Source: Mycobacterium sp. UM_WGJ
Lineage (GTDB): Bacteria > Actinomycetota > Actinomycetes > Mycobacteriales > Mycobacteriaceae
Direction: 5' to 3'
Assembly (NCBI RefSeq): GCF_000455125.1
Contig: NZ_AUWR01000020.1
Location: 1-64,000, forward strand
Length of the DNA stretch: 64,000 bases
The position numbers were made by a program, and so were the translations under genes. Below the pieces are notes generated by a model. That model worked only from the letters and a program-made list of their open reading frames with translations. It searched no databases and was not told the origin of the DNA. Shown piece after piece: positions 2 to 62,466 of the stretch. How positions within the stretch are numbered: position 1 is the stretch's first letter; every line of letters begins with the position of its first letter.

Positions 2-2386
2 GTCGACTACCTGCAGTCATTGATAGGTTCACCACCACCGGATCTGGTGGCGCCCAACGGATTGCCGGCAGGTGATCGCGCCCCTTTTGAGTTAACCGGA
101 GCGGAGGTGGCGCGCTACGCGGTACGCGCCACCGCCGCTCCGGTGAGCGGGATGGGGATGCCCGGTCTGTATGCCGCCAGGACCGTCGAGATCGTGACGG
201 CCGAGGCAGTCCAGGACGGGCTGACTGAAACGGCCGAGGCCCTGGCCGCAATTCTGCGCACACACGGCATTCGCGCGGCGATCGTGGCCCGACCCAGTGC
301 CGACGCCGAGGCGATCATCCATCTCGGCGGCCTGCGGCAAATCGCCACTCGTGACGAGGCGCTTGCCGTCAACCGGGTGCTCTTCGCCGACGCGCAGTCC
401 GTCGCAGCCCAATTCGCGGAACATGGTGGCGTCTTCGTCACCGTTCAAGACACCGGCGGCACCTTCGGTCTGCTCACCGACCCCGGCCTGCGGGCCTGGT
501 CGGGCGGGATCGGTGCGCTGGCCAAAACTGCTGCGCAGGAATGGACCAGTGCGCAGGTCAAGGCGATCGATATCGCCGTCGGACATCGTTCCCCGCTGGT
601 CGTCGCCGAGCAGATCGCCGACGAAGTCCTAGCCGGCGGGGTGGAGCTCGAAGTGGGCCTCGGTAGTCCACACGGGCGAACCACGGTCGTCGCGGACGAG
701 CAGCAGGTGAGCACCCGCACGCACCGCATCGGCCGGCAGGACGTCATTGTGGTCTCGGGTGGCGCCCGCGGGGTGACCGCCGGTTCGGTGATCGCCCTGG
801 CGCAGCAGACCCAGGCGGCGTTCGTGTTGATCGGGCGCACCGAACTCAGCGACGAACCGCCGGAAGCCCAGGGCTTGACCACCGATGCGGAGCTCAAGCG
901 GGCGCTGCTTGCCAGCGCTGCGGCGCAAGGACTCAAGGTCACACCCAAGCAGTTGGAGCAACAGGCGCAGCGCATCCTGGCCGACCGCGAGGTGCGGGCC
1001 ACTCTGGCCGCGCTGACCGCGGCCGGTTCCCGCGTCCGCTACGCCGCTGCCGACGTCCGTGACGCCGCGCAGCTGAGCGCGCTGCTGGACAGTGTGCGAA
1101 GCGAATTCGGTCCCATCACCGGCCTGGTGCACGGTGCCGGCGTACTCGCCGATGCGCCGCTGCACAAGAAGACCCTCGACGGGTTCGACCGGGTCTTCGA
1201 GACCAAGGTCGGCGGCGCGTGCGCGCTGCTGGATGCCACAGCCAACGATGCGCTCAAGGTGATCTGCCTCTTCTCGTCGGTGGCCGCGCGCAGCGGAAAC
1301 GTCGGCCAAAGCGACTACGCCATGGCCAATGAAATCCTCAACAAGGTGGCCTTGGCGGAGCAGGCCCGGCGCGGACCGTCCTGTCTGGTGCGGGCACTGG
1401 GTTGGGGCCCTTGGGATTCCGGCATGGTGACCCCGGGCCTCAAGGCGATGTTCGAGTCCCGCGGCATCTCGCTGATCCCACTCGCCGACGGCGCGCGCGC
1501 GTTTGTCGCCGACGTCCTCGACGGCGAGAGCGGAAGCTCCGAGGTGACTCTCGGCGACGGCGTACTGGCAGGGCTGCCCACGCATCCGATCCCGCCGGAA
1601 GGCAGGGTCGCGCGGGTGCTCGCCCACGTGACGCAGCAGCCCTACCTGCTCGACCACCGGGTCCAGGGCAATGTCGTGTTGCCCGTGGTGCAGGCGCTCG
1701 AATGGTTCATCCGGATGGCTGAGGCATGCCGGCCCGGCCACCACGTGGATCGGGTGCTCGACCTCAAGGTGCTGCGTGGTGTCACGCTCTACGAGTTCGA
1801 AAGGCACGGCAATCCCCTGATCGTGCGGTGTGTGCCCGTCGACGATCGGCCCGAACTGCTGACCGTGACGCTCTCCGACATCGAGGGCTCGACCGTGTAC
1901 TACTCAGCCAAACTCGAGATGCGTTCGGGCGCACCGGTGGTCCCGGGCGCCCTGGCCCCGGCCTCGGACGGTCGCAGGATCGACCGCGAAGCCTGCTACA
2001 CCGGTGGGGCACTGTTCCACGGTGCCGCATTCCGGGTGCTCGACGGCATGGACTGCGCCGAGACCACCGCGACGGCGTATCTGTCCGGATTGACGTCCGT
2101 GGGCTGGGCGGGGGAGGGCTGGGCGACCGACCCGGCCGCTGTCGACGGATGCCTGCAGGCGGCACTGGTCTGGAGCTACGAACTGCTCGGCCGCAATGTC
2201 CTTCCGCTGCGGGTGGGCGAGATCGTCCGCTACCGGTCCGGCGCGCTGGGTGCCGGCCTGCAGTGCGTGCTCACCGGTGGGGACGCCAAGACCAGCCGTG
2301 CCGTCTGCGATCTTGACCTGGTCGACGCCGACAACCAGCTGGTGATCAGTCTCAAACGACTCGAGTTGTATCCCTACGGCGGCTGA
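2..2386 (+). CDS. PfaA-like PUFA/polyketide synthase, C-terminal part (KR-DH), 5' end outside window
   Basis: The reading frame is open from the first bases of the window, so the protein begins upstream; the first residues resemble the end of an acyl-carrier domain. About 795 residues are visible. A ketoreductase domain (roughly 240-490, numbered from the TTG at 20) has a nucleotide-binding glycine motif (SGGARG) and the catalytic Tyr433 in SDYAMAN. A C-terminal PKS-type dehydratase (about 530-780) has an intact HxxxGxxxxP motif (His546) and the second catalytic Asp709 in DGCLQ. In PfaA proteins the order is KS-AT-ACPs-KR-DH, which fits this tail. Expected role: reduction and dehydration of the growing chain on the carrier domains of an iterative synthase in the cytosol. 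The next gene starts 21 bp downstream and supplies the PfaC functions. Family assignment is by domain order and motifs; the product is unknown. Confidence 0.85.
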   Translation, partial: VDYLQSLIGSPPPDLVAPNGLPAGDRAPFELTGAEVARYAVRATAAPVSGMGMPGLYAARTVEIVTAEAVQDGLTETAEALAAILRTHGIRAAIVARPSADAEAIIHLGGLRQIATRDEALAVNRVLFADAQSVAAQFAEHGGVFVTVQDTGGTFGLLTDPGLRAWSGGIGALAKTAAQEWTSAQVKAIDIAVGHRSPLVVAEQIADEVLAGGVELEVGLGSPHGRTTVVADEQQVSTRTHRIGRQDVIVVSGGARGVTAGSVIALAQQTQAAFVLIGRTELSDEPPEAQGLTTDAELKRALLASAAAQGLKVTPKQLEQQAQRILADREVRATLAALTAAGSRVRYAAADVRDAAQLSALLDSVRSEFGPITGLVHGAGVLADAPLHKKTLDGFDRVFETKVGGACALLDATANDALKVICLFSSVAARSGNVGQSDYAMANEILNKVALAEQARRGPSCLVRALGWGPWDSGMVTPGLKAMFESRGISLIPLADGARAFVADVLDGESGSSEVTLGDGVLAGLPTHPIPPEGRVARVLAHVTQQPYLLDHRVQGNVVLPVVQALEWFIRMAEACRPGHHVDRVLDLKVLRGVTLYEFERHGNPLIVRCVPVDDRPELLTVTLSDIEGSTVYYSAKLEMRSGAPVVPGALAPASDGRRIDREACYTGGALFHGAAFRVLDGMDCAETTATAYLSGLTSVGWAGEGWATDPAAVDGCLQAALVWSYELLGRNVLPLRVGEIVRYRSGALGAGLQCVLTGGDAKTSRAVCDLDLVDADNQLVISLKRLELYPYGG

Positions 2387-2407
2387 ATCGACGGCGGCTG
2401 ATTCGAA

Positions 2408-5400
2408 GTGAAGTTTGATCCGATCGCGATCGTCGGGCAGGGGTGTGTCCTGCCCGGGGGACTGAACGCGGGTGAGCTCTGGACAACGGTGCACGACGGC
2501 CGCGACGCATTGGGCTCACCCGGGCCGGATTACTGGGGGGTATCCCCGGAGCGCGTCCTGTGCGCCCCGGCGGACGTGCCCGAACTCGACCACACCTGGT
2601 CGGACCGCGGCGGCTACGTCCGCGGGTTCGACGACCTTTTCGATCCGCGCGGACTGTTCCTCGACGCCGACGACCTGGCCGGACTCGACCCGCTCTACCG
2701 GTGGGGAATCGAGGCGGCCAGACAAGCCCTGGACAGTGCGGGATGGCGGGCAGGTGAGGTGCCGGGTTCCGCCGGGATCGTCCTGGGCAACCTGAGCTAT
2801 CCGACCAAGAAGATGACCGACCTCGCCGAATCAGTCTGGCGGGGAGAAGAACCCGGAGTCGACTGGCGCAACCGCTTCATGTCCGGCCTGCCGGCTCACC
2901 TGATCGCGCAGGCATTGGGCCTGACTGGCGGAGCCGCGGCCCTCGACGCCGCCTGCGCCTCGTCGCTGTATGCCATCAAGCTGGCCTGCGATCGGCTACA
3001 CGACCGCACCGCCGACGTGATGTTCGCCGGCGGCATCAACGGCGCCAGTGATCTGCTGCTGCACGTCGGCTTCACCGCCTTACAGGCCCTGAGCCGAACG
3101 GGGAGGTCACGACCGTTCAACAACGGCGCCGACGGCCTGGTCCCCGCCGAGGGCGCCGCCATCCTGGTGCTGCGGCGGCTTGACGACGCGATCGTCGACG
3201 GCGACTCCATTCTGGGCGTCATCCGGGGCGTCGGCTTGAGCAATGACGGTCGGGGACATGGGTTTCTGGTGCCCTCCCAAAACGGCCAAGAACGCGCGAT
3301 GCGCCTGGCCTACGAGATGGCCGGACTTGAGCCGCGCGACATCTCCCTCATCGAATGCCACGCCACCGGGACATCGCGCGGTGACCTGACCGAACTGATG
3401 AGCATGGCGAGCATCTTCACCGGCATGACCGACGTGCCCATCGGTTCACTGAAATCCAATCTGGGCCACTCGATCACGGCATCCGGCGCGGCGGGAGCCA
3501 TCAAAGTACTGGCCGCGATGCGTGCCGGGATACGTCCCCCGACCCTGCACGCCGAAGATCCGCTCCCGTTCATCGCCGACTCGCCGTTCCGGTTGCTCAC
3601 TGAGGCCGAGCCCTGGGACACCGACGGGCCGCGTCGCGCCGCGGTCAACAACTTCGGCTTCGGCGGAAACAACGCCCACCTGCTGCTCGAAGAATGGGTC
3701 GAGGGACCCGGTCCCACGCCGGCTCCTCCGGTCGCCGCGCCCCGGGCCGAGCAGGAGATCGCGATCGTCGGCCTGAGCCTCCTGATCGGCGACGGTCACG
3801 GAACGGCCTCCGTCGCCGAGCACTTGAAGACATGTCAGCCGATACCCACCGGCCTGGCCGACGGAGCCCGCGGCGCACGCATGGACGAGGTCTGCCTGGA
3901 TCTGACCCAGACCCGCTTCCCACCGGCCGATCTCAAACAGACCCAGCCTCAACAACTGGCGTTGCTCGGTGCGGCCCTGGGCATCGGCGAGTTGATCAAG
4001 AGCCTGCCGCCGGACACCACCAGCGTCGTCGTCGGCATGGGCTGCGACGCCGAAGTCAACCGGTTCGGCCAGCGCTGGCGGCTGGCCGATGAATTCGACG
4101 ACCCCGGCCGGCTCGCCGCCGCTCGCGACGATGTCGTCGCGGGGTGGACCGCCGCGGGGGTCGTGGGAGCCATGCCCAACATCGTCGCGAACCGACTGAA
4201 CAGCCAATTCGATTTACGTGGGCCCAGTTTCACGGTGTCGCGCGAACAGCTCTCGGGCACCACGGCCCTGGAGATGGCCGCGCGGGCGTTACGCCGCGGA
4301 GAGGTCGACGCGGCCGTGGTCGGGGCGGTGGATCTCAGCTGCGAACCCGTGCATCAGGCGGCGGCGCGCGCCCTACTGCACCCCGATGAGCAGACACCCG
4401 CAGACGCCGCCGTCGTCCTGGTGCTCAAGCGCGCCGCCGACGCGCGCCGTGACGGCGACCCGGTGTACGCAACCCTGCTGCCCGATCAGCCGGTCGACGC
4501 CGAATGTCTGCACCTGGGCACCGTTCCCGGTGCGGTGAGCCTGTCGGCGTTGTTGGGTCACGCGCACGCCGCCTCGGGACTGCTGCATGTGGCCGCGGGC
4601 GTGCTCTATGCAGCCCTCGGAGTGTGGCCCGACGGCGAGCCCTGGACATCCGCGCAACGGCGCGTCGCCGTCGAACTCACCGGACTGGCCGGCCAGCGAC
4701 AACACATCACGCTGGTGTCCTCGGCAACCGGGCCGGAGGCCGCGGCCTTGACGGCGCCGGCAGCAGCCAACGGTGCCGGGAAACCCATCCGGCTCAACTT
4801 CCCCGCGCACCTGCCCGCGGTCCACCTGCCCCCACGCGTCCCGGCCCCAGGAACGAACCCCCCTGATCAACTGGAGCAATTCATGCCGATACAACTCCCG
4901 ATGCCTCCGGCTTTGGCAACGGTCGCGGAGTCGCTGGCCCGGCTGCCGCTGGGTGTCGCCGCGGCGACACCGGCGCTACCGGAACCGCAGCCGACTGCGG
5001 CCGACGCTGCCCCCGCGACGCCCGCCACCGCACCCGCCGGCGCAAGCCGGGCGATCCAGCCGGTCAAACCTGCCGACAAGGTGGTCCCGACCCCGACGGT
5101 GAAGCGTGAGCCGGTGGGCCTCAAGCTCGACAAGGACGGGTTGCGCGTGCACTCCTCGGGGAACATCTCCGAGATCTTCGGCCCGGCCTTCGCCGAGCAG
5201 GACCAATATCCGCGCCAGGTCCGGATGCCCGAACCGCCACTGCTGCTGGCGGATCGGCTGTTGGGCATCGACGCCGAGCCGGCTCGGCACGGCACCGGAA
5301 CGCTGTGGACCGAAACCGATGTCACCGCCGACTCCTGGTGGCTCCAGCAGGGCCGGATGCCCGCCGGTATCATGATCGAAAGCGGGCAGGCCGACCTGAT

Positions 5401-8400
5401 GCTTATCTCCTGGATGGGCGCGGATCTGCTCAACAAGAGCGAGCGGGTCTATCGGTTGCTCGGCTGCGAGGTCACCTACCTGGGTGGGTTGCCCGAGATC
5501 GGCGACACCCTGCGCTTCGACATCCACGTGGACGGCCACGCCCGGCAAGGCGATGTGCGGCTGTTCTTCTTCCACTACGACTGCACGATCGACGGTGTCG
5601 AGCGGATGTCGATGCGCAACGGCCAGGCCGGTTTCTTCACCGACGAGGAGCTGGCGGCATCCGGCGGGGTGTTGTGGCGGCCTGAGGAACAGACCGTCAG
5701 CGGACCGATGGAGCAGACGCCCGCCCAGACGTCGCGCACCTCGCTGCAGCGCGCCGACCTGGAGGCGATGGCGTCCGGTGAGATCTGGCGTACGTTCGGC
5801 GAGGGATTCGAGCGCGCCGGCAGCCACACTCGCACCCCCAGCATCCACGCCGGCGACATGCTCTTCGTCGACGAAGTGACGGATCTGGACTTCACCGGTG
5901 GGCCGTGGGGCCGCGGATATCTGCGGGCCGTCGCGCCCGTGACGCCGGAGAACTGCTTCTTCGCCGGCCATTTCAAGAACGATCCCTGCATGCCGGGCAC
6001 GCTGATGTATGAGGCGACCATGCAGACCATGGCGATCTACATGACCGCCCTGGGCATGACACTCGACTGCGACGGCTGGCGCTTCGAACCGGTTCCCTTC
6101 GAGACCTACAAGCTGCGCTGCCGGGGCCAGGTCACCCCGCAGTCGCGCGAGGTGGTCTACGAAGTGTTCGTCCGCGAGGTGATCGCCGGACCCGAGCCGA
6201 CACTGTTCGCCGACCTGCTGTGCACCGTCGACGGGCTGCCCGCCTTCCACTGCGAGCGGATGGGCCTGAAGCTGTCACCGGGCTGGCCGATGGACCTCGG
6301 CGCCAAGGAACTCGAAGGCTACGTCGAGCTCAAAGCGGTCGCCGAAGTCAACGGGTTCCGCTATGACTACCAGGCGATGCTCGCCAGTGCGATCGCCAAG
6401 CCGTCCATGGCGTTCGGACCGTTGTTCGAGAAGTTCGACTCTCCCCGCAAGGCGGCCCGCCTGCCCGGCCCGCCGTATCACTTCATGTCCCGGGTCACCG
6501 AACTGGTCGGTGAGACCGGCGTGATGAAGGCCGGCGCCGAAGTCGTCGTGGAGTACGACGTACCCGCCGACGCCTGGTATTTCGCCGAGAACGGTGCCGC
6601 CAACGGCCATGAGACGATGCCCAACGCGGTGCTCATGGAAGTCGCGCTGCAGCCCTGCGGCTGGCTGGCCAGCTACGTCGGCTGCCCGCTGGACGGTGAC
6701 GCGGACCTGTTCTTCCGCAACCTGGACGGGACCGGAACGCAACACCGGGAGGTGACCCCGGCGACGGGAACACTGCGCATCAAGGTGAAGCTGAAGAGCC
6801 TCGCCAAGGCCGCGGGAACCATCATCGTCGGCTTCGACGGGGAGATCGTGGCCGACGAGGGACCGGTCTACACCTTCGACACCGTGTTCGGCTACTTCAA
6901 ACGCGAAGCGCTGCAAAACCAGGTCGGTCTCCCGGTCAGCGACTCGCAACGCGCCTCTCTGGCGCAGCCCTCCGAGGCTCCGCTGGTCGACTTGACCACT
7001 CAGCCCGCCGAGTTCTTCGGGGCGGGAGCGCGGTTGGCAGACCCGATGCTGTTGATGGTCGATCGGGTCACCGGCCGCTGGCCCACCGGAGGCGCCGCCG
7101 GCCTGGGCCAATGGCGCGGCGTTAAAGACGTCAACCCCGGCGAGTGGTACTTCAAGGCGCACTTCTTCGGCGACCCGGTCCAACCGGGGTCCCTGGGCAT
7201 CGAGATGCTTTTGCAGCTCCTGCAGTTCGGGATGCTCGACCTCGGACTCGGCAAGGAAGCCGGACCGTCGGCCCGCTTCGAGCCGGCCGCCCTGCACGAC
7301 GCCATGACCTGGCGGTACCGCGGCCAGATCATCCCCACCAACAAGCAGATCACCGCACAGGTGGAGATCACCCGGATCGTCCGCGAGGACGCCGGCATCC
7401 TCGCGGTGGCCGAGGCATCGCTGTGGGTGGACGACAAGCGCATCTACACCGCCAGCAACCTGGGCATGCGCATCGTGGCAGGCCCGGAGGAGCGGCTGTC
7501 GCCGGCAGCTGCCGGGGCCATCACCACATCGGCAGCGGTACCGGGGAGCGCGGCGGGTGCAGCCGCTCCGGCATCGCTGCCGTCGGCGGAAACTGCTGCC
7601 GCGGTGCAGAACACCGCGCCCGTGACCACCACGATGGAAGTCACGCTCGATCCGGTCAACGACTCCTGGGTCGTCGATCACTGCCCCACGTACGTGATCC
7701 CGTCGCTGCCGATGATGTCGGTCATGGACCTGTTCGCCCAGGCGGCGGCCCGTGCCTCAGGCGGAGCCAAGGTCGTCGAGATCACCGATGTCCAGATGGT
7801 TCGCTGGGTCGTGGTCGACGCCCCGAAGCAGCTGCGGGTCGTGCTGGAGCAGACGCCGGAGGCCGGACATTCTCGGGGCCGCCTCGAAGTCTGGCGTGAT
7901 GCGCCGCGAGCAGAGTTGTCCCGCTGGGAAATTCACGCGCACGCCGTTGTCGTCACCGCCGCACAGTACAGCGGTGAACCCGAGCCGCCCGCCCCGCTGG
8001 AAGGTGCGGTGCCCTACGCCGATCCCTATGACGGAACGGTGTTTCACGGCCCGGCGTTCGCGACCCTGACCGAGGGCGCCCGGATCGGCCGCAACGGCTC
8101 GACCGGAACGCTCGCGATCGAGCGCTGCGCCGTTCCGGTCGGCGAACTGCAGCCGGGGCTGTTGGACGGCGCGCTGCATGTCGTACCGCACACCGCGATG
8201 AGCGTGTGGACCACCGACACCGCCGATCCGGCATCGTATGTCGATGCCAACGACCCCGACGTCGGGTTCCCGCGCCGCATCCTCTCGGCCCGGTTCTACT
8301 CCGACACCCCGGTGGCCGGAACCGTGGATGTCGAAGCCCGATTCGTGGGCTTCGACGACGACGAACGCCGTATGCCGATCTTCGACCTGTGGCTCAGCGT

Positions 8401-9730
8401 CGCCGGAAAACCCTGGGCCCGTATCCGGATGGCCGAGTTCCTGCTGAGCAAGGGACCGCTGGCCGAGGTCGGCGGGCCCGAACGACGCGCCTTCATGGGT
8501 GACCGGCAGGCGGTCCCGGGACTGTCGCTGAGCGAACGACTCGGGCGCGGCGTGCTGGAGCTCGACACCGCCCGGATGGCAACCCTCGACTGGTTCAAGG
8601 GCACTCTGCAGGCCGTGTACGGCACCGACAGCCAAGGCGATTCGCTGATGGTCGACATCGTGACCAAGGAAGCGGTCGCGGACGCAGTTCACAATGCGGT
8701 CCACCCCGCTCAGGTTCAGGTCATCGACGGAAAGGTGAGCTGCCCCGCGCTGCCGCTGGAGCGCATCACGGTCGACGTCGAGAAGCTCGGGCCGGGTGCG
8801 TGCCGTGCGAGCGCGTCAGCGGAAACCGACTGGGAGCCGGTCCGAGCCTGGTGGACCGAGAGCGCCGGCATGCCGGATGGCTGGTTCGGCGAGTTGGCCC
8901 TGGGAGCGGTGCTGTCGCGCTATGTACGCCACGTGGTGGTCACCGATCCGGCCGCGATGGCGGCCGTGCACGGCCGGCCGGTGTTGCTGCTGGCCAACCA
9001 CCAGGTGCAGGTCGAATCACTGTTGGGCACCACCATCGGATCGTGGCTGACCGGCACGAAAGTCGTCACTATCGGCCACGCCAAACACGAGACCGGCTGG
9101 GTCGGCAATCTGCTGCGGATGATCGACGCGGCGGCGGGCAAACAGTTGGGCCATCTCCGCTACTTCGACCAGCAGCAGCCCCAGGAGTTCTTCGGTCTGG
9201 TCGACGAACTCAAGCGGGAGACCGCGGCGCTGGGGGTGTCGGTCATGGTGCACGCCGACGGGACCCGCAGTGTGAGCTCGAGTCAGCGGGTGGAGAGGCT
9301 GACGTCGACACTGCTGGACATGGCGATCGAGATGGCGATGCCGATCGTGCCGGTGTACTTCGCGGGCGGCCTGCCCGAGGAGCCGTTGCCGCACAAGCTC
9401 GAAGTTCCCTACGGCCATGCCGCGCAGGACTACATCTTTGGCAGGCCGATTCTGCCCGAAGAGCTGCGCGGTCGTCCCTACGCCGAGCTGCGGCGTTACG
9501 TCATGGACGCGATCAACGCGCTCGCACCGTTCAGTGACGCACCGCACGCCCCGAACTACGATGTGGAGAGCCGGATTACGGCCGCCGCCCCGGGTGCCTC
9601 GCCGCTGGAGTCGGTGTGGTTCTGCATCGAGGACGCGCTGGACTCGCTGCCGGTCGACTGGCGAAACCTGATCGCCGACGAGGACTGGGAGCTGGCCGGG
9701 TTTCGGCAGTCAGCGAGCACAGCTCAGTAA
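2408..9730 (+). CDS. PfaC-like multidomain synthase: KS-CLF-DH-DH-DH-acyltransferase
   Basis: This is a 2440-residue protein with a GTG start. Visible domains are: an active ketosynthase (1-430; Cys183 in DAACASS, His318 in ECHATG, His354 in NLGHS); a second KS fold (450-800) in which the cysteine is replaced by Gln614 (SREQLSG), the signature of a chain-length factor; an Ala/Pro-rich linker (about 835-905); two FabA-like double-hotdog dehydratases (about 940-1310 with GHF at His1188, and 1330-1700 with AHF at His1585); a third, PKS-type hotdog (about 1740-2030, His1758 and Asp1920); and a PlsC-like acyltransferase (about 2170-2380, NH at 2197-2198 and DGTR at 2284-2287). KS-CLF-DH-DH is the core of PfaC in PUFA synthases, and a terminal acyltransferase is known from myxobacterial Pfa3. 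Likely role: chain extension, double-bond placement and transfer of the acyl chain to a lipid acceptor. No AT or ER domain is visible. Confidence 0.85.
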   Translation: MKFDPIAIVGQGCVLPGGLNAGELWTTVHDGRDALGSPGPDYWGVSPERVLCAPADVPELDHTWSDRGGYVRGFDDLFDPRGLFLDADDLAGLDPLYRWGIEAARQALDSAGWRAGEVPGSAGIVLGNLSYPTKKMTDLAESVWRGEEPGVDWRNRFMSGLPAHLIAQALGLTGGAAALDAACASSLYAIKLACDRLHDRTADVMFAGGINGASDLLLHVGFTALQALSRTGRSRPFNNGADGLVPAEGAAILVLRRLDDAIVDGDSILGVIRGVGLSNDGRGHGFLVPSQNGQERAMRLAYEMAGLEPRDISLIECHATGTSRGDLTELMSMASIFTGMTDVPIGSLKSNLGHSITASGAAGAIKVLAAMRAGIRPPTLHAEDPLPFIADSPFRLLTEAEPWDTDGPRRAAVNNFGFGGNNAHLLLEEWVEGPGPTPAPPVAAPRAEQEIAIVGLSLLIGDGHGTASVAEHLKTCQPIPTGLADGARGARMDEVCLDLTQTRFPPADLKQTQPQQLALLGAALGIGELIKSLPPDTTSVVVGMGCDAEVNRFGQRWRLADEFDDPGRLAAARDDVVAGWTAAGVVGAMPNIVANRLNSQFDLRGPSFTVSREQLSGTTALEMAARALRRGEVDAAVVGAVDLSCEPVHQAAARALLHPDEQTPADAAVVLVLKRAADARRDGDPVYATLLPDQPVDAECLHLGTVPGAVSLSALLGHAHAASGLLHVAAGVLYAALGVWPDGEPWTSAQRRVAVELTGLAGQRQHITLVSSATGPEAAALTAPAAANGAGKPIRLNFPAHLPAVHLPPRVPAPGTNPPDQLEQFMPIQLPMPPALATVAESLARLPLGVAAATPALPEPQPTAADAAPATPATAPAGASRAIQPVKPADKVVPTPTVKREPVGLKLDKDGLRVHSSGNISEIFGPAFAEQDQYPRQVRMPEPPLLLADRLLGIDAEPARHGTGTLWTETDVTADSWWLQQGRMPAGIMIESGQADLMLISWMGADLLNKSERVYRLLGCEVTYLGGLPEIGDTLRFDIHVDGHARQGDVRLFFFHYDCTIDGVERMSMRNGQAGFFTDEELAASGGVLWRPEEQTVSGPMEQTPAQTSRTSLQRADLEAMASGEIWRTFGEGFERAGSHTRTPSIHAGDMLFVDEVTDLDFTGGPWGRGYLRAVAPVTPENCFFAGHFKNDPCMPGTLMYEATMQTMAIYMTALGMTLDCDGWRFEPVPFETYKLRCRGQVTPQSREVVYEVFVREVIAGPEPTLFADLLCTVDGLPAFHCERMGLKLSPGWPMDLGAKELEGYVELKAVAEVNGFRYDYQAMLASAIAKPSMAFGPLFEKFDSPRKAARLPGPPYHFMSRVTELVGETGVMKAGAEVVVEYDVPADAWYFAENGAANGHETMPNAVLMEVALQPCGWLASYVGCPLDGDADLFFRNLDGTGTQHREVTPATGTLRIKVKLKSLAKAAGTIIVGFDGEIVADEGPVYTFDTVFGYFKREALQNQVGLPVSDSQRASLAQPSEAPLVDLTTQPAEFFGAGARLADPMLLMVDRVTGRWPTGGAAGLGQWRGVKDVNPGEWYFKAHFFGDPVQPGSLGIEMLLQLLQFGMLDLGLGKEAGPSARFEPAALHDAMTWRYRGQIIPTNKQITAQVEITRIVREDAGILAVAEASLWVDDKRIYTASNLGMRIVAGPEERLSPAAAGAITTSAAVPGSAAGAAAPASLPSAETAAAVQNTAPVTTTMEVTLDPVNDSWVVDHCPTYVIPSLPMMSVMDLFAQAAARASGGAKVVEITDVQMVRWVVVDAPKQLRVVLEQTPEAGHSRGRLEVWRDAPRAELSRWEIHAHAVVVTAAQYSGEPEPPAPLEGAVPYADPYDGTVFHGPAFATLTEGARIGRNGSTGTLAIERCAVPVGELQPGLLDGALHVVPHTAMSVWTTDTADPASYVDANDPDVGFPRRILSARFYSDTPVAGTVDVEARFVGFDDDERRMPIFDLWLSVAGKPWARIRMAEFLLSKGPLAEVGGPERRAFMGDRQAVPGLSLSERLGRGVLELDTARMATLDWFKGTLQAVYGTDSQGDSLMVDIVTKEAVADAVHNAVHPAQVQVIDGKVSCPALPLERITVDVEKLGPGACRASASAETDWEPVRAWWTESAGMPDGWFGELALGAVLSRYVRHVVVTDPAAMAAVHGRPVLLLANHQVQVESLLGTTIGSWLTGTKVVTIGHAKHETGWVGNLLRMIDAAAGKQLGHLRYFDQQQPQEFFGLVDELKRETAALGVSVMVHADGTRSVSSSQRVERLTSTLLDMAIEMAMPIVPVYFAGGLPEEPLPHKLEVPYGHAAQDYIFGRPILPEELRGRPYAELRRYVMDAINALAPFSDAPHAPNYDVESRITAAAPGASPLESVWFCIEDALDSLPVDWRNLIADEDWELAGFRQSASTAQ

Positions 9731-14383: not shown

Positions 14384-15289
14384 GACGAATTTCGCCGTCC
14401 TACAAGAACGGTCGCGTGCCGAAGCGGCGCAGGTCCACGTTTCGGACAGCGCTGATGCGGTGCGGGCGAACCGATTCAGGGGGTGAAGGCGGCGCCGGGG
14501 CAGGGTTCGAACGAAATGGTCGTCGATCTCGGATAAGGACTATCGCTCGTACTCAATGTCGCTCTCACCTCCTCACGGCCAGGGCACACGGGGATGCCGT
14601 TGCAGCGGGCACAGCGGGACTACCGAACCAGCGCAGAGTCGGCCGGACGGCACCCCTCTCGACAGAGTTTTGGCACTGCACGGCGTATCCAGTCGTATGC
14701 CGAAAGCCACTTGGGCTCAACCCTTAAGCCGGGAAGAGCTGTCCTGACCCTGGGCGTCTCTCGACGTTTGAGGTCAGTGGCCTGTATCCGTACAGACGCC
14801 TCACCTAGCGAGGTGCGTTCGCGGCCATGGTGGCATCACCGTGGGGGATAGTCAACTCGAATGTGAACCTCTGCGCTGCCCGATGAGTTGCCCAAAATGT
14901 AACGAGCATCGCGAATGATACTGGTGTTCTACATGTTTCGTGGGTGCGAAAAGTTTGCCCAGCAGCGGTTGATGTGCTCTTGCTGAGAATGTCAAAGCGG
15001 TGACAGGGTGAACGGCCAGAATTACCAATGCATCCCGACGCCAAGTACTCGACCCGAACTCCGGAATGCCTCGTAGCAAGGCGATTCGGTAGACCGATCC
15101 GGATAGAGCTCCTGCTACCTTCGAAAGTGCCCTCGGTCGATCTGAGTGCGCGTGGTCGCCTGAGCACGGTTCGGGTTCGACCCTTGACCGATGTCGCTCA
15201 GATTTACTTAAATGGGCTAGCAGTCACATCACCGGCTACCCGTGTCGGCAGTCCGCCGCGGACGGGCCACAGCGGGTGAGGAGGAACTT
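14384..15289. other. Gene-free intergenic stretch of about 900 bp
   Basis: I see no supported gene here on either strand: short frames lack ribosome binding sites and recognisable protein sequence. The middle part (about 14880-15000) looks lower in GC than the flanks. Small dyads exist (CTGTA/TACAG and CACCT/AGGTG near 14790-14820), but they are too short to interpret. The stretch separates the divergent PE-PPE operon from the thioesterase operon and probably holds both promoters. Confidence 0.5.
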
Positions 15290-16264
15290 GTGCAGACGTC
15301 GGCGTCCGAGGTCTCCGCTCACCCCGACTACGGCGGTCCCCTGCTCGGGTCGGGAAGTCAACTGGAACGCGCCACGCTCGACGCGCTGGACCGGCTGCAG
15401 CAGGTGCTGACGCTGCACTCACTGGGCGAGGACCGATTCCGGGCGGACAACGAGGCCGGCCGGTTCGGCCGGATCTTCGGCGGCCAGCTCATCGCCCAGG
15501 CGATGACAGCGGCCGCGGCCACGGTCCCCGAGCTGACCGCCCATTCCATTCACGCGTCGTTTCTGCGTCCCGGCGACTCGGGCGTACCACTGGAGATCGT
15601 CGTCGACCGCACTCGCGACGGGCGCACCATGTCGGCACGGCAGGTCACCATCCAGCAGGGCGGTCGCACCCTCGTGGTGGCGACGGTGTCCTTCGACACC
15701 AGCCCGGACAGCACAGACGCCGACCCCGTGCCGTTGCCCGGGCCCGCACCGGAAGCCCTTCCGCTGCTACAGCACTGGGTGCAGCACGCCCCGCCATACC
15801 TGGCCGGGCGAGGGAACACCTGGATAGAACGGCCCCCGCCGCTGGAAGTTCGCACCGCCGAAGCCCCGGTCTTCCTGGGCGGCGCCCAAGCGCCGGGTCC
15901 GCGTGCCCATTGGATGCGGTTGCCGCGTGGAATCGACGGCGATCACCAGCTGCACGCGGTGCTGCTTGCCTACGCCAGCGACTACCTGCTGGTGGATACC
16001 GCGTTTCGTGCCCACCCGCAGCCGGTCGACCATGCCACGCACACCGGCCTGACCTTGGACCACAGCGTGTGGCTGCACCGTGCAGTCCACTTCGATCGAT
16101 GGCACCTCTACACCCAGCAGACCGTCGCAACGGCCGGACACCGCGCCCTGGTGCACGGCACCATGGTCGATGACACCGGCCGCCATGTGGCCAGCACCGC
16201 ACAAGAAGTGCTCGTCCGGCCGATAGCCGAGCCGCCGGGACGGCAGAAACCCGGGGACCAGTAG
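15290..16264 (+). CDS. tesB: Acyl-CoA thioesterase II
   Basis: I chose the GTG at 15290 because GAGGAGG lies just upstream at good spacing; this gives 324 residues. The protein is a double hotdog of the TesB type: an N-terminal half with GRIFGGQLIAQA and HSIHASFLRPGD, and a C-terminal half with LDHSVWLH and HLYTQQT, which supply the Asp and Gln expected in the catalytic triad. TesB hydrolyses acyl-CoA to free acid and CoA and often accompanies beta-oxidation genes. Its stop overlaps the GTG of the following SDR by one base, so the two are translationally coupled. It is the first gene of a five-gene co-directional run. Confidence 0.9.
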   Translation: MQTSASEVSAHPDYGGPLLGSGSQLERATLDALDRLQQVLTLHSLGEDRFRADNEAGRFGRIFGGQLIAQAMTAAAATVPELTAHSIHASFLRPGDSGVPLEIVVDRTRDGRTMSARQVTIQQGGRTLVVATVSFDTSPDSTDADPVPLPGPAPEALPLLQHWVQHAPPYLAGRGNTWIERPPPLEVRTAEAPVFLGGAQAPGPRAHWMRLPRGIDGDHQLHAVLLAYASDYLLVDTAFRAHPQPVDHATHTGLTLDHSVWLHRAVHFDRWHLYTQQTVATAGHRALVHGTMVDDTGRHVASTAQEVLVRPIAEPPGRQKPGDQ

Positions 16265-37914: not shown

Positions 37915-38354
37915 GCCCCCGTGCACCGCGGCGGTCACTGCTGGCACGCGCCTGGATGCCGTTGGTCGCGGTCATCGCGCTCGGCTTAGGCGCGCTGGGC
38001 ATGTGGAAGGTTCACCAGATGTCGGCACCGGGGCCGGTACTGACCGTCAATCCGCCCCAGGCAGCAGAGAAGTTCAACCCGAAGAAGCTCACCTATGAGG
38101 TGTTCGGCTCCGTCGGCGCGGGCGCCTTGCTGTCCTACGTCGACATCGACGGGCACCCGCACACGGTCGAGCTGGACACCCTGCCGTGGACCCATGAGGA
38201 GACGACGATGCTCACGGTGGTCTCCGGCAGTATCTCGGCGCAGGTGCGCGGCGACTATGTCGGTTGCCGGATCCTGGTCGACGACGTGATTCGCGACGAG
38301 CGGACCAATGCCCATCCCAACGCGGACATCAGTTGCCGGGTGAAGTCCGCATGA
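37911..38354 (+). CDS. MmpS-family periplasmic accessory protein
   Basis: The protein has 147 residues: one N-terminal membrane helix (about 13-33) followed by a periplasmic beta-rich domain with KLTYEVFGS and two cysteines (VGCRILVDD and DISCRVK) that probably pair. MmpS proteins work with an MmpL partner in lipid or siderophore export. The start overlaps the upstream stop, and its own stop overlaps the mmpL start, both as ATGA. Confidence 0.92.
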   Translation: MSPRAPRRSLLARAWMPLVAVIALGLGALGMWKVHQMSAPGPVLTVNPPQAAEKFNPKKLTYEVFGSVGAGALLSYVDIDGHPHTVELDTLPWTHEETTMLTVVSGSISAQVRGDYVGCRILVDDVIRDERTNAHPNADISCRVKSA

Positions 38355-41185
38355 GCGGACATCGCGCGGCCCGCCCACTGGCGGCCCGGCTGGTCCGCAT
38401 GCTGTCCATTCCGATCATCGTGTTCTGGGCACTGTTGGCGGTGGTGACCAATACCTTTGTGCCGCAGGTGGAGAGGGTCGCCGAGGAACTCGCCGGCCCG
38501 ATGGTCCCCACCTATGCGCCCTCGCAGGCCGCGATGCTGGCGATCGGGGAGAAGTTCCAGGAGTCCGATTCGACGAGCATGACGATGCTGGTGCTGGAAG
38601 CCGATCGTCTACTGGGGGAGCAGGACCACCGCTACTACGACGCACTGGTGCGTACGCTGCAGGCCGACACCGAACACGTCCAGTACGTGATGGACACCTG
38701 GGGGAAGCCGATCACCGCCGCCGGCGCCCAGAGCGTCGACGGCAAGGCCGCCTATGTGCTGCTGCGACTGGCCGGCGACATCGGGCAGTTGCAGGCCAAC
38801 GACTCCGTGGCCGCGGTACGGCACACGGTCGCCACCTCCGACCCGCCGGCGGGGCTGACCGTCTACGTCAGCGGCGCGGCACCGCTGGCCGCCGACACCG
38901 TCGCGATCGCGAATTCGAGCCTGAACAACATCACGATCGCGACGATCTTCCTCATCATCTTCATGCTGCTGCTGGTCTACCGGTCCTACATCACCATGCT
39001 GGTGCCGCTGTTCGGCGTGCTGATCCTGATGCTGGCGGCCAAGGGGGTCATCGCGACCCTCGGCCACTTCGGCTACATCCAGCTGTCGTCGTTCGCGGTG
39101 AACTTGGTCGTTGCGCTGACCCTGGGCGCGGGAACCGATTACGGCATCTTCTTGATGGGCCGCTACCACGAGGCACGGCTGAACGGCGAGAGCCGTGAAG
39201 ACGCGTTCTACACGGCGTATCGCGGGGTGTCGCACGTGATCCTGGGTTCCGGGCTCACGATCGCCGGCGCGGCGTTCTGCCTGAGTTTCGCCCGCTTGAA
39301 CTACTTCAACACGATGGGGCCCGCGGTGGCGCTCAGCATGGTGCTGACGGTCACCGGCGCGTTGACGCTCGGACCGGCGATTCTGAGTGTGGGCAGCCTG
39401 ATCGGGCTGTTCGATCCTCGCCAGCAGGTCAAAGCACGGCTGTACCGCCGAATCGCCACCAGCGTGGTCCGCTGGCCCAAGCCGATCCTGACGGCCAGCG
39501 TCGCCGCGGTGGCTGCGGGGGCGATCTTCGTGCCGACCTATGTGGTCAGCTTCGACGACCGCAGTTACCAGCCGCACGATTCGGCCGCCAACCTCGGGTT
39601 CGCGGCCGCCGATCGGCACTTTCCCCAAAGCAAATTGTTCTCCGAGATGCTAATGATCGAGTCCGATCACGACATGCGTAACTCGGCGGACTTCATCACC
39701 CTGGACCGGGTGGCCAAGGCGCTCATCAGGCTTCCGGGCGTCGCGATGGTGCAGAGCATCACCCGGCCCATGGGGCGCGCACTGGAACACGCGTCGCTGC
39801 CCTACCTGTTCACCACCCAAGGCAGCGGCAACGGCCAGCAACTGCCGTTCACTCGGGAGCAGAACGCCAACACCGAACGGCAGGCGCAGATCATGGCGCA
39901 TTCGGTGGAGGTGCTGCAGAGCACGATCGTGTTGACGCAGACGCTGGCCGACGAGATGCATGCCACGGTGCTCACCATGGAGGAGATGCAGGCGCTCACC
40001 GAACAGATGGATGAGGAGATCTCCAATCTCGATGACTTCATGAGGCCCATCCGGAGCTACTTCTATTGGGAACCACACTGTTTCGATATCCCGGTCTGCT
40101 GGGCGTTCCGATCGCTGTGGGACATGATGGACAGCGTCGACAAACTGGCGGCGAACATCAAAGACGCGGTATCGCATCTGGAAGTCGTCGATACGCTGCT
40201 GCCGCCGATGGTCGCGCAACTGAACAAGATGGCCGACGACCAGATCGCGTTGCAAGCATTGATCGTGAACACCTACGGCCCCACGAGCATTCAGGCCGAG
40301 AATACCGATCAGACCTTCGGTGACATGATCAATGTCGGCAACGATTTCGACGCCTCTGGAAGTGACGACTTCTTCTACATACCCCGCCCGGCATTCGACA
40401 ACGAGGACGTCAAAACCGGGATGCAGCTGATGATGTCCCCGGACGGCAAGGCCGCTCGGTTCATCGTCACCCACGAAGGTAACGCGATGGGTCCCGAGGG
40501 CGTCGAGCACGTGGAGCGGTTCCCCGACGCGATCAAGATCGCGTTGAAGGAGACCTCGCTGGCCGGCGCCAAGATCTACATCGGCGGATCGGGCTCGAAC
40601 AACAAAGACATTCAGCAGTACTCACGATCGGATCTGCTGATCGCCGCGATCGCGGCCTTCGTGCTGATCTTCCTGATCATGCTGGTCATCACCCGAAGTC
40701 TGGTGGCGGCGTTGGTGATTCCCGGTACCGTGGCATTCTCCTATGCCGGCGCGTTCGGGTTGTCGGTATTGATCTGGCAGCATCTGATCGGGCTGCATCT
40801 GCACTGGCTGATCCTGCCGCTGACGTTCATCATCCTGGTGGCGGTCGGCTCGGACTACAACCTGCTGCTGATCGCCCGGCTCAAAGAGGAACTCGGTGCC
40901 GGGCTCAACACCGGTCTGATCCGGGCGCTGGGCAGCACCGGCGGGGTGGTGACCTCGGCCGGCCTGGTGTTCGCCTTCACCATGCTGGCGATGCTCGCCA
41001 GCGATCTGCGCACCATCGGACAGCTGGGATCGACGGTGTGCATCGGCCTGCTGCTGGACACCCTGATCGTGCGGTCGTTCATCGTGCCGTCGCTGGTGCG
41101 GATCTACGGGCCGTGGTTCTGGTGGCCGACGATCGTGCGGAAACGGCCACTGCGGCAGCGGCCGCAGGTGACTACGCCGGTGTGA
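38351..41185 (+). CDS. MmpL-family RND transporter (MmpL4/5-like)
   Basis: The 944-residue protein has the MmpL layout: membrane helix 1, a large extracytoplasmic domain, helices 2-6 containing the GTDYGIFLMGRYHEA motif, a second large domain, and a second set of helices with GSDYNLLLIARLKEE. The second domain holds a long heptad-rich stretch (about 520-590) and the FYWEPHCFDIPVC segment seen in MmpL4/MmpL5-type exporters. These use the proton gradient to export lipids or mycobactin-type siderophores together with MmpS. The cargo is unknown. The gene is controlled, by position, by the TetR at 36732. Its 3' end overlaps the convergent TetR gene by 14 bp. Confidence 0.94.
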   Translation: MSGHRAARPLAARLVRMLSIPIIVFWALLAVVTNTFVPQVERVAEELAGPMVPTYAPSQAAMLAIGEKFQESDSTSMTMLVLEADRLLGEQDHRYYDALVRTLQADTEHVQYVMDTWGKPITAAGAQSVDGKAAYVLLRLAGDIGQLQANDSVAAVRHTVATSDPPAGLTVYVSGAAPLAADTVAIANSSLNNITIATIFLIIFMLLLVYRSYITMLVPLFGVLILMLAAKGVIATLGHFGYIQLSSFAVNLVVALTLGAGTDYGIFLMGRYHEARLNGESREDAFYTAYRGVSHVILGSGLTIAGAAFCLSFARLNYFNTMGPAVALSMVLTVTGALTLGPAILSVGSLIGLFDPRQQVKARLYRRIATSVVRWPKPILTASVAAVAAGAIFVPTYVVSFDDRSYQPHDSAANLGFAAADRHFPQSKLFSEMLMIESDHDMRNSADFITLDRVAKALIRLPGVAMVQSITRPMGRALEHASLPYLFTTQGSGNGQQLPFTREQNANTERQAQIMAHSVEVLQSTIVLTQTLADEMHATVLTMEEMQALTEQMDEEISNLDDFMRPIRSYFYWEPHCFDIPVCWAFRSLWDMMDSVDKLAANIKDAVSHLEVVDTLLPPMVAQLNKMADDQIALQALIVNTYGPTSIQAENTDQTFGDMINVGNDFDASGSDDFFYIPRPAFDNEDVKTGMQLMMSPDGKAARFIVTHEGNAMGPEGVEHVERFPDAIKIALKETSLAGAKIYIGGSGSNNKDIQQYSRSDLLIAAIAAFVLIFLIMLVITRSLVAALVIPGTVAFSYAGAFGLSVLIWQHLIGLHLHWLILPLTFIILVAVGSDYNLLLIARLKEELGAGLNTGLIRALGSTGGVVTSAGLVFAFTMLAMLASDLRTIGQLGSTVCIGLLLDTLIVRSFIVPSLVRIYGPWFWWPTIVRKRPLRQRPQVTTPV

Positions 41186-50285: not shown

Positions 50286-52334
50286 TCAGCGTGGCTGATT
50301 GGGCCACCAGACCCGGCCGCCGATCAGTGCGAACAACGCCGGAATCACCAGGGTGCGAACGACGAAGGTGTCCAACAGGATTCCCAAGCCCACGATGATG
50401 CCCAGCTGAGTCAGCACGATCAACGGCAGCACCCCGAGCACGCAGAACACCGCAGCCAGCACGATGCCGGCGCTGGTGATGACTCCGCCGGTGGCTGACA
50501 CCGCGCGCACCATGCCGTCGCGGGTGCCGTGTGCGGGCGTCTCTTCGCGGGCGCGGGTCACCAGGAAGATCGTGTAGTCCACGCCCAGCGCCACCAGGAA
50601 CAGGAAAGCGAACAGGGGAGTGCTGTTGTCCAGCGCCGGAAATCCGAACAGGTGCAGACTGGCCCAGCAGCCCAACCCGAGCGCGGCGACCGCGCTGAGC
50701 ACCGTCGCCGCAACCAGGACCGGCGGGGCCAACACGGCCCGAAGCAGCACGAACAACACGGTGAGCACCACCAGCAGGATCAGCGGGATCAGCACCGCGC
50801 GGTCGCGCACGGCCGCGTCGCGCACATCGAGGGCCTGCGCGTCGGCGCCACCCACCATCGCGCGGGTGTCTACCGCGCCGACCGAATCTCGAAGTCCGGC
50901 AACGGTGTTAAAGGCGGCTTCGGTTGCCGGGGCGGCGTCGAGCACCGCAGACCACATGGTTCGGCCGGTCTCGGACATACCCGTCTGGACCACCGAGACG
51001 ACGCCCGGAACCGCGGTGATCGCCCGCTTGAGCTGCTGCGACCGGGCGGTGGGGCCGATCACGACGGTCGGACTGACCGCACCGTCCGGAAAGTGCGCTG
51101 CCAGCGTGTCGAATCCGGTCACCGAGTCGGCCTGTAACCGGAACTGCTCGGTCTGCGACAACCCGATACCGGCGCCCAGCAGGCCGGTGGCCGACACCGC
51201 CAGGACGGCGATCGCCGCCGTGCACACCACGGCCGGGCGGCGCGAGACGGCCGCGGCGACGCGGTACCACGGGCCGGCCGGGGTGGCTCCATTGTCGACA
51301 GCCCGGGGAATGAACGGCCAGAACACCTTCCGGCCGACCAACGCCAGCAACGGGGGTAAAACCAACAGCACGAATACGGCGGCCACCACCAGCCCGCAAC
51401 TGGCGCAGATCCCCAGGCTGCGGGTACTCGGGGTCACCGCCAAGATCAACGTCAGCAGAGCCAGCACCACGGTCGCGTTACTGGCCAGGATCGCCGGGGC
51501 GGCGGCGGCCACCGCCCGGCGCAGCGCGGTCCGATGGTCGGGCTGTGAGCGCAGTTCTTCGCGGTAGCGCGAAATCAGCAGCAGCGCATAGTTGGTGCCG
51601 GCCCCGAAGACCAGGACGCTGGTGATGCCTGCGGTGGAGCCGTCAAAGGTCACGCCCGCGGCGCGTGCGACATCGGAGCCCACTACGGTGGCCACCCGAT
51701 CGGCGAACGCGATCACCAGCAGCGGTACCAGCCACAACACCGGCGACCGGTAGGTGACGATCAACAGCAGTGCCACCACCAGCGCGGTGACCACCAACAG
51801 GGTCACGTTGGCGCCGGTGAAGGCATCGGCGATGTCGGCGCCGAACGCCGGCCCGCCGGTGACGTGGGTTGACAGCGTCGGAGGCAAGCCGTCGGCGGCC
51901 GCCGCTCGCAGGGCTTTGACCGCATCGGTGAGCTCGAAGCCGGACAAGTCGGCAGCCAAGGGCACCGTCGCCAGGGCCGCCTGCTGATCGGTGGACAGCA
52001 TCGCCGGCGGTGCCGGGCCGTCGAGCACTTGGGGCACCTGCGTCATACGGTCACGTGCGGCATTGACCGCTGCGACGTCGGCCGGCGTCAGGGGCCCACC
52101 ATCGCTGCGGGTGGCGACCAGCAGCGCGGCCGCCTGGTCCCCACCGGCGAAGGTGGACTGCGCCGCGGCGACACGGGCGGATTCGGCGCTGGGCGGCAGC
52201 GCCTCGGGGGATTGTGTCGCGGACGCGTTGTCGTTGCCGAGCGCCATCAGTGCGACGGCGATCAGGATCGGAACCAGCGCAACGAGCCAGGAACGGCGGG
52301 CGCTGACCGCCGTGGACAAGCGCTCCCACAGCAT
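50286..52334 (-). CDS. MMPL-family RND transporter (short type)
   Basis: The ATG at 52334 gives 682 residues; a TTG 24 bases upstream is a weaker option. Two repeats of one plus five membrane helices are visible, with FGAGTNYALLLISRYREE in the first repeat and ALGVDYTIFLVTRAREE in the second. It lacks the long periplasmic coiled coil and the FYWEPHCFD segment of the larger MmpL proteins in this window. There is no MmpS partner next to it. Cargo unknown; short MMPL proteins export lipids or drugs. Confidence 0.9.
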   Translation of the reverse strand: MLWERLSTAVSARRSWLVALVPILIAVALMALGNDNASATQSPEALPPSAESARVAAAQSTFAGGDQAAALLVATRSDGGPLTPADVAAVNAARDRMTQVPQVLDGPAPPAMLSTDQQAALATVPLAADLSGFELTDAVKALRAAAADGLPPTLSTHVTGGPAFGADIADAFTGANVTLLVVTALVVALLLIVTYRSPVLWLVPLLVIAFADRVATVVGSDVARAAGVTFDGSTAGITSVLVFGAGTNYALLLISRYREELRSQPDHRTALRRAVAAAAPAILASNATVVLALLTLILAVTPSTRSLGICASCGLVVAAVFVLLVLPPLLALVGRKVFWPFIPRAVDNGATPAGPWYRVAAAVSRRPAVVCTAAIAVLAVSATGLLGAGIGLSQTEQFRLQADSVTGFDTLAAHFPDGAVSPTVVIGPTARSQQLKRAITAVPGVVSVVQTGMSETGRTMWSAVLDAAPATEAAFNTVAGLRDSVGAVDTRAMVGGADAQALDVRDAAVRDRAVLIPLILLVVLTVLFVLLRAVLAPPVLVAATVLSAVAALGLGCWASLHLFGFPALDNSTPLFAFLFLVALGVDYTIFLVTRAREETPAHGTRDGMVRAVSATGGVITSAGIVLAAVFCVLGVLPLIVLTQLGIIVGLGILLDTFVVRTLVIPALFALIGGRVWWPNQPR

Positions 52335-52401
52335 CCGGCGAGCATGGCACCGAATCAACGGCCAAACAACCGAATGCCCTCAGATCGCCTACTGTGAGCT
52401 C

Positions 52402-62397: not shown

Positions 62398-62466
62398 ATA
62401 GTATCTGTCGGCGCAGAATGCGCCCCTCAAAAATCACTTTCCACGATAGCTATTAGAGGTTTGAAC

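Follow-up and report, generated by a model that had tools for sequence, protein, structure and literature searches.

The window analysed here is the 64,000-base stretch at positions 1–64000 of contig C20 (NZ_AUWR01000020.1) of Mycobacterium sp. UM_WGJ (genome G000), a 4.47-Mb draft of 116 contigs, and the subject is the polyunsaturated fatty acid (PUFA) synthase locus at its left end. Bases 2–9730 form the downstream half of a pfa operon: the ketoreductase and dehydratase end of PfaA (KR-PS-DH), followed by a PfaC of 2440 aa. In our judgement the locus probably belongs to a PUFA synthase operon of type L (Sorangium-like), pfaD-pfaA-pfaC, of which it is the 3' half and whose product would be short and would go to phospholipid. 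As far as its sequence tells, the locus is real, well supported as a PUFA synthase and of an already known kind. Mycobacterial lipids are among the best-studied bacterial lipids, and to our knowledge membrane PUFAs made de novo do not usually figure among them; some mycobacteria may make polyunsaturated fatty acids for their membranes.

Genes and domains of the pfa operon

The following features were found on the plus strand of the window.

2..2386, plus strand: C-terminal part of pfaA (Pfa2), open reading frame (ORF) of 794 aa, with KR at about 746–1417 and the polyketide synthase (PKS)-type dehydratase PS-DH at about 1625–2377
2408..9730, plus strand: pfaC (Pfa3), 2440 aa, GTG start, 21 bases past the pfaA stop
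2417..3709, plus strand: ketosynthase (KS) domain of PfaC, Cys-His-His intact
3743..4777 (borders approximate), plus strand: chain-length factor (CLF), Gln614 (codon 4247–4249) in place of the catalytic Cys
5141..7477, plus strand: two FabA-like dehydratase/isomerase domains, DH2 and DH3, with His1188 (5969–5971) and His1585 (7160–7162)
7610..8449 (residues about 1735–2014), plus strand: PKS-type dehydratase DH4, with His1758 (7679–7681) and Asp1920 (8165–8167)
8972..9361 (residues about 2189–2318), plus strand: core of a PlsC/AGPAT-like acyltransferase, with NHQxxxES (His2198, 8999–9001) and DGTR

Both ORFs named in an earlier note on this DNA were recovered, together with the KR-DH tail and the KS that follows it. 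The first ORF is open at its 5' end because the contig starts there. In searches with Pfam and NCBIfam models it matched KR (2.7e-32) and PS-DH (3.1e-13), and it covers positions 1825–2568 of the PfaA model TIGR02813 (2e-99). The upstream KS, acyltransferase (AT) and PfaD-type enoyl reductase (ER) that the earlier note proposed to look for were found on contig C53 of the same genome (22,447 bases), which ends with pfaD and then the start of pfaA. PfaD scored 590.9 bits against a curated cut-off of 449.25, and the pfaA frame holds KS and AT (957 bits over PfaA model positions 5–949) before it runs off the contig end within a Pro/Ala-rich linker. The C53 half and the C20 half each score under the PfaA model cut-off of 1010.1 bits when taken alone, whereas the whole PfaA of two relatives reached 1580 and 1600 bits.

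The pfaA gene is split in two by an assembly gap at the place where the acyl carrier proteins (ACPs) belong. In the PfaA of relatives, up to three tandem ACPs are seen, all with the motif LGIDSIKRVEIL: three in six of eight, two in G242 and one in G235, with G164 left out of the count for its split pfaA. Because the relatives' ACPs repeat one motif, up to three times, the array itself is suggested as the site of the contig break. The tandem ACPs expected upstream are thus seen in intact relatives only and are absent from our own draft, in which the contigs break there. The phosphopantetheinyl transferase also expected has two candidates in the genome (PF01648), both on other contigs and not at the operon.

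In PfaC, two Pfam models cover the halves of the KS (4.7e-62 and 6.3e-33), and a second KS-like half lacks the catalytic Cys. The alignment places Gln614, within FTVSREQLSG, at the position of this Cys, as had been read from the letters alone; it aligns with a Glu of chain 6riw_A, which we take to be a marine PfaC KS-CLF, its PDB name being only 'ORF10'. Among the 21 mycobacterial loci covering the position, 11 have Q and 10 have E, and the residue in 39 other loci is E in 34, A in 4 and Q in 1. A special meaning of Gln614 was rejected, because Q and E alternate among relatives. The FabA family matched three stretches of PfaC (4.5e-86). Two double-hotdog dehydratases had been listed correctly, but that list was incomplete, as DH4 and the PlsC-like acyltransferase had been missed. 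All catalytic residues checked are present in the window.

All 26 sequences aligned gave a match to the acyltransferase family PF01553 at E ≤ 0.01, and the His and Glu of the predicted active site are kept in 75 of 75 loci covering them. A profile of the DH4-AGPAT stretch, unlike the single sequence, did match PDB entries, with the predicted acyltransferase matching the PlsC structure 5kym at E 0.0034. The 50 rows obtained with VIA-align held no acyltransferase; the DH fold fills this list, and the acyltransferase half was barely tested by it.

The gap between CLF and DH measures 211 aa in the window and at most 295 aa in mycobacterial loci, compared with 576–919 aa in loci with an insert (L056 gave no usable gap). 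No AT signature motif was found in this gap, even in loci where an AT is likely; the motif is therefore uninformative, and the absence of a second AT (AT2) rests on the gap length together with weak AT matches of 25–28% in L082, L085, L087, L089, L111 and L122. Read in this way, the stretch behind the CLF is too short for such a domain in the mycobacterial loci, and AT2 is absent between CLF and DH2. By sequence, the domain set is KS-AT and KR-PS-DH for PfaA and KS-CLF-DH2-DH3-DH4-AGPAT for PfaC, with a separate ER.

Kinship of the synthase domains

The KS tree was built from 71 of 109 extracted KS rows, those of named or own loci, and the program flagged long branches. The PfaA KS of the window's genome falls in the PfaA KS clade (22 rows, 100/100) and the PfaC KS of the window in the PfaC KS clade (39 rows, 100/100), while the genome's own seven PKS KSs form a separate clade (100/99). 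The CLFs form a clade of 23 rows (100/100), and the fork of the own PKSs there has 94/96. Domain matches, the upstream half on C53 and the KS and CLF trees all agree with the PUFA-synthase-like nature claimed in the earlier note, and the tree comparison it had proposed sets the Pfa clades apart from the genome's own PKSs.

Mycobacterial PfaC KSs of the window's type form one clade of 17 rows (100/100); L141 and L142 are of this type, although the tree labels them 'Myco2nd'. The nearest non-mycobacterial PfaC KSs are those of Archangium, Terriglobia, Actinacidiphila and an actinobacterial metagenome-assembled genome (95/93). Since this sister set is mixed, a direct transfer from myxobacteria is not supported. 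The marine reference in the kinship comparison was the 6riw alignment alone. Over the C-terminal part of PfaC, the closest named relatives are Mycolicibacter species, 89–93% identical among the best 80 of 487 matches, to which the scan for related loci beyond the relatives was confined. This identity places the strain in or close to the M. terrae complex, to which those species presumably belong. Within the complex, M. nonchromogenicus and M. arupensis also have the operon in their genomes.

Synteny and integrity of the locus

The pfaD gene precedes pfaA in nine of nine relatives, and intact relatives keep pfaD-pfaA-pfaC together. In G069, which is 95% identical over the C-terminal part of PfaC, the operon is preceded by acyl-CoA dehydrogenase and PAP2-diacylglycerol (DAG) kinase genes and followed by an Rv2525c-like gene, a PPE gene, a TesB-like thioesterase gene and a luciferase-like gene. 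These flanking genes recur on C53, close to its end, and on C20 behind pfaC, and the pfa neighbours match those of complete relative genomes. The dN/dS of PfaC was 0.10, 0.11, 0.12, 0.16, 0.20 and 0.21 against six of the nine fetched relatives (G164, G143 and G242 were left out): purifying selection acts on PfaC of this type. The assembly is listed as 100% complete with 0.02% contamination, and the GC content of the window is even, at 0.65–0.70.

Proposed function

Most likely, a polyunsaturated acyl chain is made by the synthase and passed on to a lysophospholipid. The two KS sites would condense malonyl units on the ACPs in repeated rounds, and the KR and four dehydratases would yield enoyl intermediates. 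Reduction by PfaD or isomerisation by the FabA-like DHs would follow, the latter giving methylene-interrupted double bonds, with the CLF and the dehydratases, DH4 included, setting chain length and double-bond pattern. The C-terminal acyltransferase would close the cycle by moving the acyl chain from the ACP to 1-acylglycerol-3-phosphate (lysophosphatidic acid), giving phospholipid. A release step by an acyltransferase has been proposed for myxobacteria (PMC4882568, PMC8436480). By analogy, we guess a short C18, linoleic-type product rather than eicosapentaenoic or docosahexaenoic acid (DHA), because PfaC is without AT, as in Sorangium, which is reported to make linoleic acid. A PUFA synthase that is conserved and under selection, and that has its own phospholipid-type acyltransferase, yields a directly testable prediction.

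Several points weigh against this function. None of the genome's 24 PF00550 matches falls in its own pfaA, and the adjacency of C53 and C20 is drawn only from synteny with relatives. The DH4-AGPAT stretch alone gave no PDB match up to E 1 with phmmer, PF01553 on the window protein alone reached 21.3 bits, under the Pfam cut-off of 23, and the acyltransferase motif carries an E in place of the D found in the PlsC structure. The analogy for product length leans on one organism, and S. cellulosum has also been grouped with Aetherobacter under a wider PUFA set (PMC8436480). In the part of the literature covered, no paper reporting PUFA from the M. terrae complex lineage was found.

Alternative explanations

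The synthase could instead serve a specialised lipid building block, its chain passing to an acyl-AMP ligase and a PKS or being esterified onto an envelope lipid; we regard this as rather unlikely for the window. A fatty-acyl-AMP ligase follows pfaC in five of five fetched loci of one slow-grower clade (G110, G143, G164, G235 and G242). In G143 (L051:6224-14514), the ligase is FadD28/FadD21-like and is followed by a PKS resembling mycocerosic acid synthase (MAS) or Pks2 (NF041183, 2655 bits against 2400) and by a saccharopine-dehydrogenase-like gene. Behind their operons, M. numidiamassiliense and M. ahvazicum have the same gene pair, with PKS copies 80–84% identical; ligase and PKS stand there in L060 (M. 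numidiamassiliense) and L069. Published Pfa-like systems serve specialised metabolites, with Mycobacterium examples beside genes for PKSs and nonribosomal peptide synthetases (NRPSs) (PMC13291983).

Ligase and PKS genes behind a pfa operon suggest PUFA-primed methyl-branched lipids in those lineages. In the window's lineage (G000, G069, G022, G073 and G016), however, the best ligase matches are 56–57% identical and located elsewhere, and the conservation of the acyltransferase His and Glu in all 75 loci points to direct esterification. Coupling to a ligase and a PKS was rejected for this lineage, since no ligase adjoins the operon. Tentatively, and with more doubt than confidence, both outcomes might be joined in a wider picture: several mycobacterial lineages would make PUFA without oxygen, those of the M. 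terrae complex passing it by their own acyltransferase to phospholipid, and the slow-grower clade by the ligase to a mycocerosate-synthase-like PKS and on to an undescribed polyunsaturated methyl-branched envelope lipid.

A phleic acid synthase, the link drawn in the earlier note, is very improbable. Phleic double bonds are spaced by four carbons and Pfa bonds by three, which counts against it, and the window's type occurs in just 22 of the 248 genomes sampled from the genus. Mycobacteria do make polyunsaturated C36–C40 phleic acids (PMC11633156, PMC5524727), but the genes credited with trehalose polyphleates are papA3, pks, fadD23 and mmpL10 (PMC5524727, citing Burbaud 2016). No PapA-like protein, and no PKS either, was seen among the 23 further window proteins (part of the window's frames) and 6 C53 proteins scanned with Pfam, and the MMPL genes lie at least 28 kb from the operon. 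The link was dropped: the published phleate genes differ, and no such set stands beside the operon among the proteins scanned.

There is equally little to be said for a decayed or inactive locus, or an artefact of assembly or binning. The pfaA gene is cut at a contig edge, frames are split in two of nine relatives (pfaA in G164, pfaC in G242) and one of two synthase copies of M. angelicum (L065) has lost the active-site His of DH2, the first FabA-like domain. Against this stand the dN/dS values of 0.10–0.21, the active-site residues present, the same neighbours in complete genomes, the even GC content and the low contamination. An ordinary mycobacterial type I PKS can be dismissed almost outright, for although models of Pks13 and Pks2 match the KS too, the KSs and CLF fall in Pfa clades, with the own PKS KSs apart.

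Distribution in mycobacteria

The C-terminal query of PfaC matched 51 of the 248 sampled genomes of the genus, its own included. The match extends over both halves in 22 of them (the window's type), covers the DH-DH part only in 27 (a second type) and is limited to C-terminal fragments in two; G023, one of the 22, also holds the second type. In 394 genomes of the class, the DH4-AGPAT stretch matched six; five belong to this genus, and the sixth, from outside the genus, was matched in DH4 alone. Four of the 31 genomes drawn as relatives, again with its own, gave a match.

The second type was read in five loci (L136–L140; G098, G172, G049, G023 and G082). It shares with the window's type a PfaA with ACPs and KS-CLF-DH-DH, as well as a PfaD in the three loci reaching that far; it differs in a long insert after the CLF and in having no DH4 or AGPAT match. 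Identity to the window is 44–54%, over the DH-DH part only, and its KSs form a separate clade. This is probably the kind reported as clade IV in PMC13291983. Some second-type loci stand beside genes that read, from their first residues, as dTDP-sugar, MmpL or NRPS genes.

Two divergent synthase copies occur in one genome in M. angelicum (L065, L066) and likewise in G113 and G216. In M. numidiamassiliense (L060, L071; G244), the synthase region occurs twice on one contig, with equal score, in opposite directions and about 100 kb apart. Locus L107 lies on a contig binned as an Opitutia metagenome-assembled genome; it shares 82% identity with the PfaC region of mycobacteria and probably got into that bin as a contaminant from one of them.

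Neighbouring genes

A fused PAP2 phosphatase-DAG kinase gene (L017:7325-8869, minus strand, contig C53) precedes pfaD in 4 of 10 genomes compared (the window's, G069, G022 and G073). Its protein could act on the phosphatidic acid expected from the acyltransferase. The gene of a TesB-like acyl-CoA thioesterase lies at window positions 15242–16264, 5.5 kb behind pfaC, and stays near the operon in four of four Mycolicibacter-like relatives compared. Three MMPL-family transporter genes are found within 20 kb (38264–41185, 50286–52358 and 53833–56793). At the right edge, from window position 62461 to 64000 and on to L145:1-1989, AMP-binding, ACP and reductase parts share one frame, which presumably resembles a carboxylic acid reductase.

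Comparison with known PUFA synthases

Marine pfaABCDE systems (Moritella, Shewanella) share with the window a KS-CLF like 6riw (E 2.5e-99), the pair of FabA-like DHs and PfaD; the window has DH4 and AGPAT in addition, and no PfaB was seen beside the operon. The fused architecture is thus distinct from marine PfaC, as the earlier note held; it is not new, however, but the known terrestrial type L layout, which is already published (PMC4882568, PMC8436480, PMC6731297). A new architecture was rejected, as the same domain order is found in Sorangium and other bacteria.

Compared domain by domain, KS-CLF-DH-DH-DH4-AGPAT without AT is the layout of the Sorangium, type L (myxobacterial) synthase. Sorangium cellulosum (L105, L113) has the pfaA-pfaC order and the same domains in co-linear arrangement, with CLF-to-DH gaps of 353 and 481 aa, below the 576 aa or more of the loci with an insert and above the 211 aa of the window. 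L105 is 35–56% identical by domain and 80% over a partial PfaA KS, and Sorangium is not the sister group of the mycobacterial PfaC KSs. Type L carries pfaD at its 5' end (PMC3098273), and Sorangium has been reported to make only linoleic acid (PMC4882568).

By their published descriptions, with which alone we compared them, Pfa1-Pfa2-Pfa3 of Minicystis rosea and Aetherobacter likewise consist of ER, KS-AT-ACP-KR-DH1 and KS-CLF-DH2-DH3-AGPAT, with DH4 in M. rosea, but their Pfa3 contains AT2 (PMC8436480, PMC6731297). Their products are arachidonic and docosatetraenoic acids or docosapentaenoic acid and DHA (PMC8436480, PMC6731297).

Pfa-like genes in mycobacteria are already known. They have been described in Mycobacterium fortunisiensis and a Mycolicibacterium sp., where PKS-NRPS genes accompany them, and in M. 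simulans, where NRPS genes do (PMC13291983); Actinobacteria with Pfa-like clusters are listed in PMC3098273, where mycobacteria are not named as holders in the accessible part. In the incompletely covered literature, no report of the AGPAT-bearing type in mycobacteria was found. In 2016 this type was stated to be confined to the type L cluster of myxobacteria (PMC4882568). The locus described here adds the genus Mycobacterium to its range, and provides PUFA synthase parts of actinobacterial origin that lack AT2.
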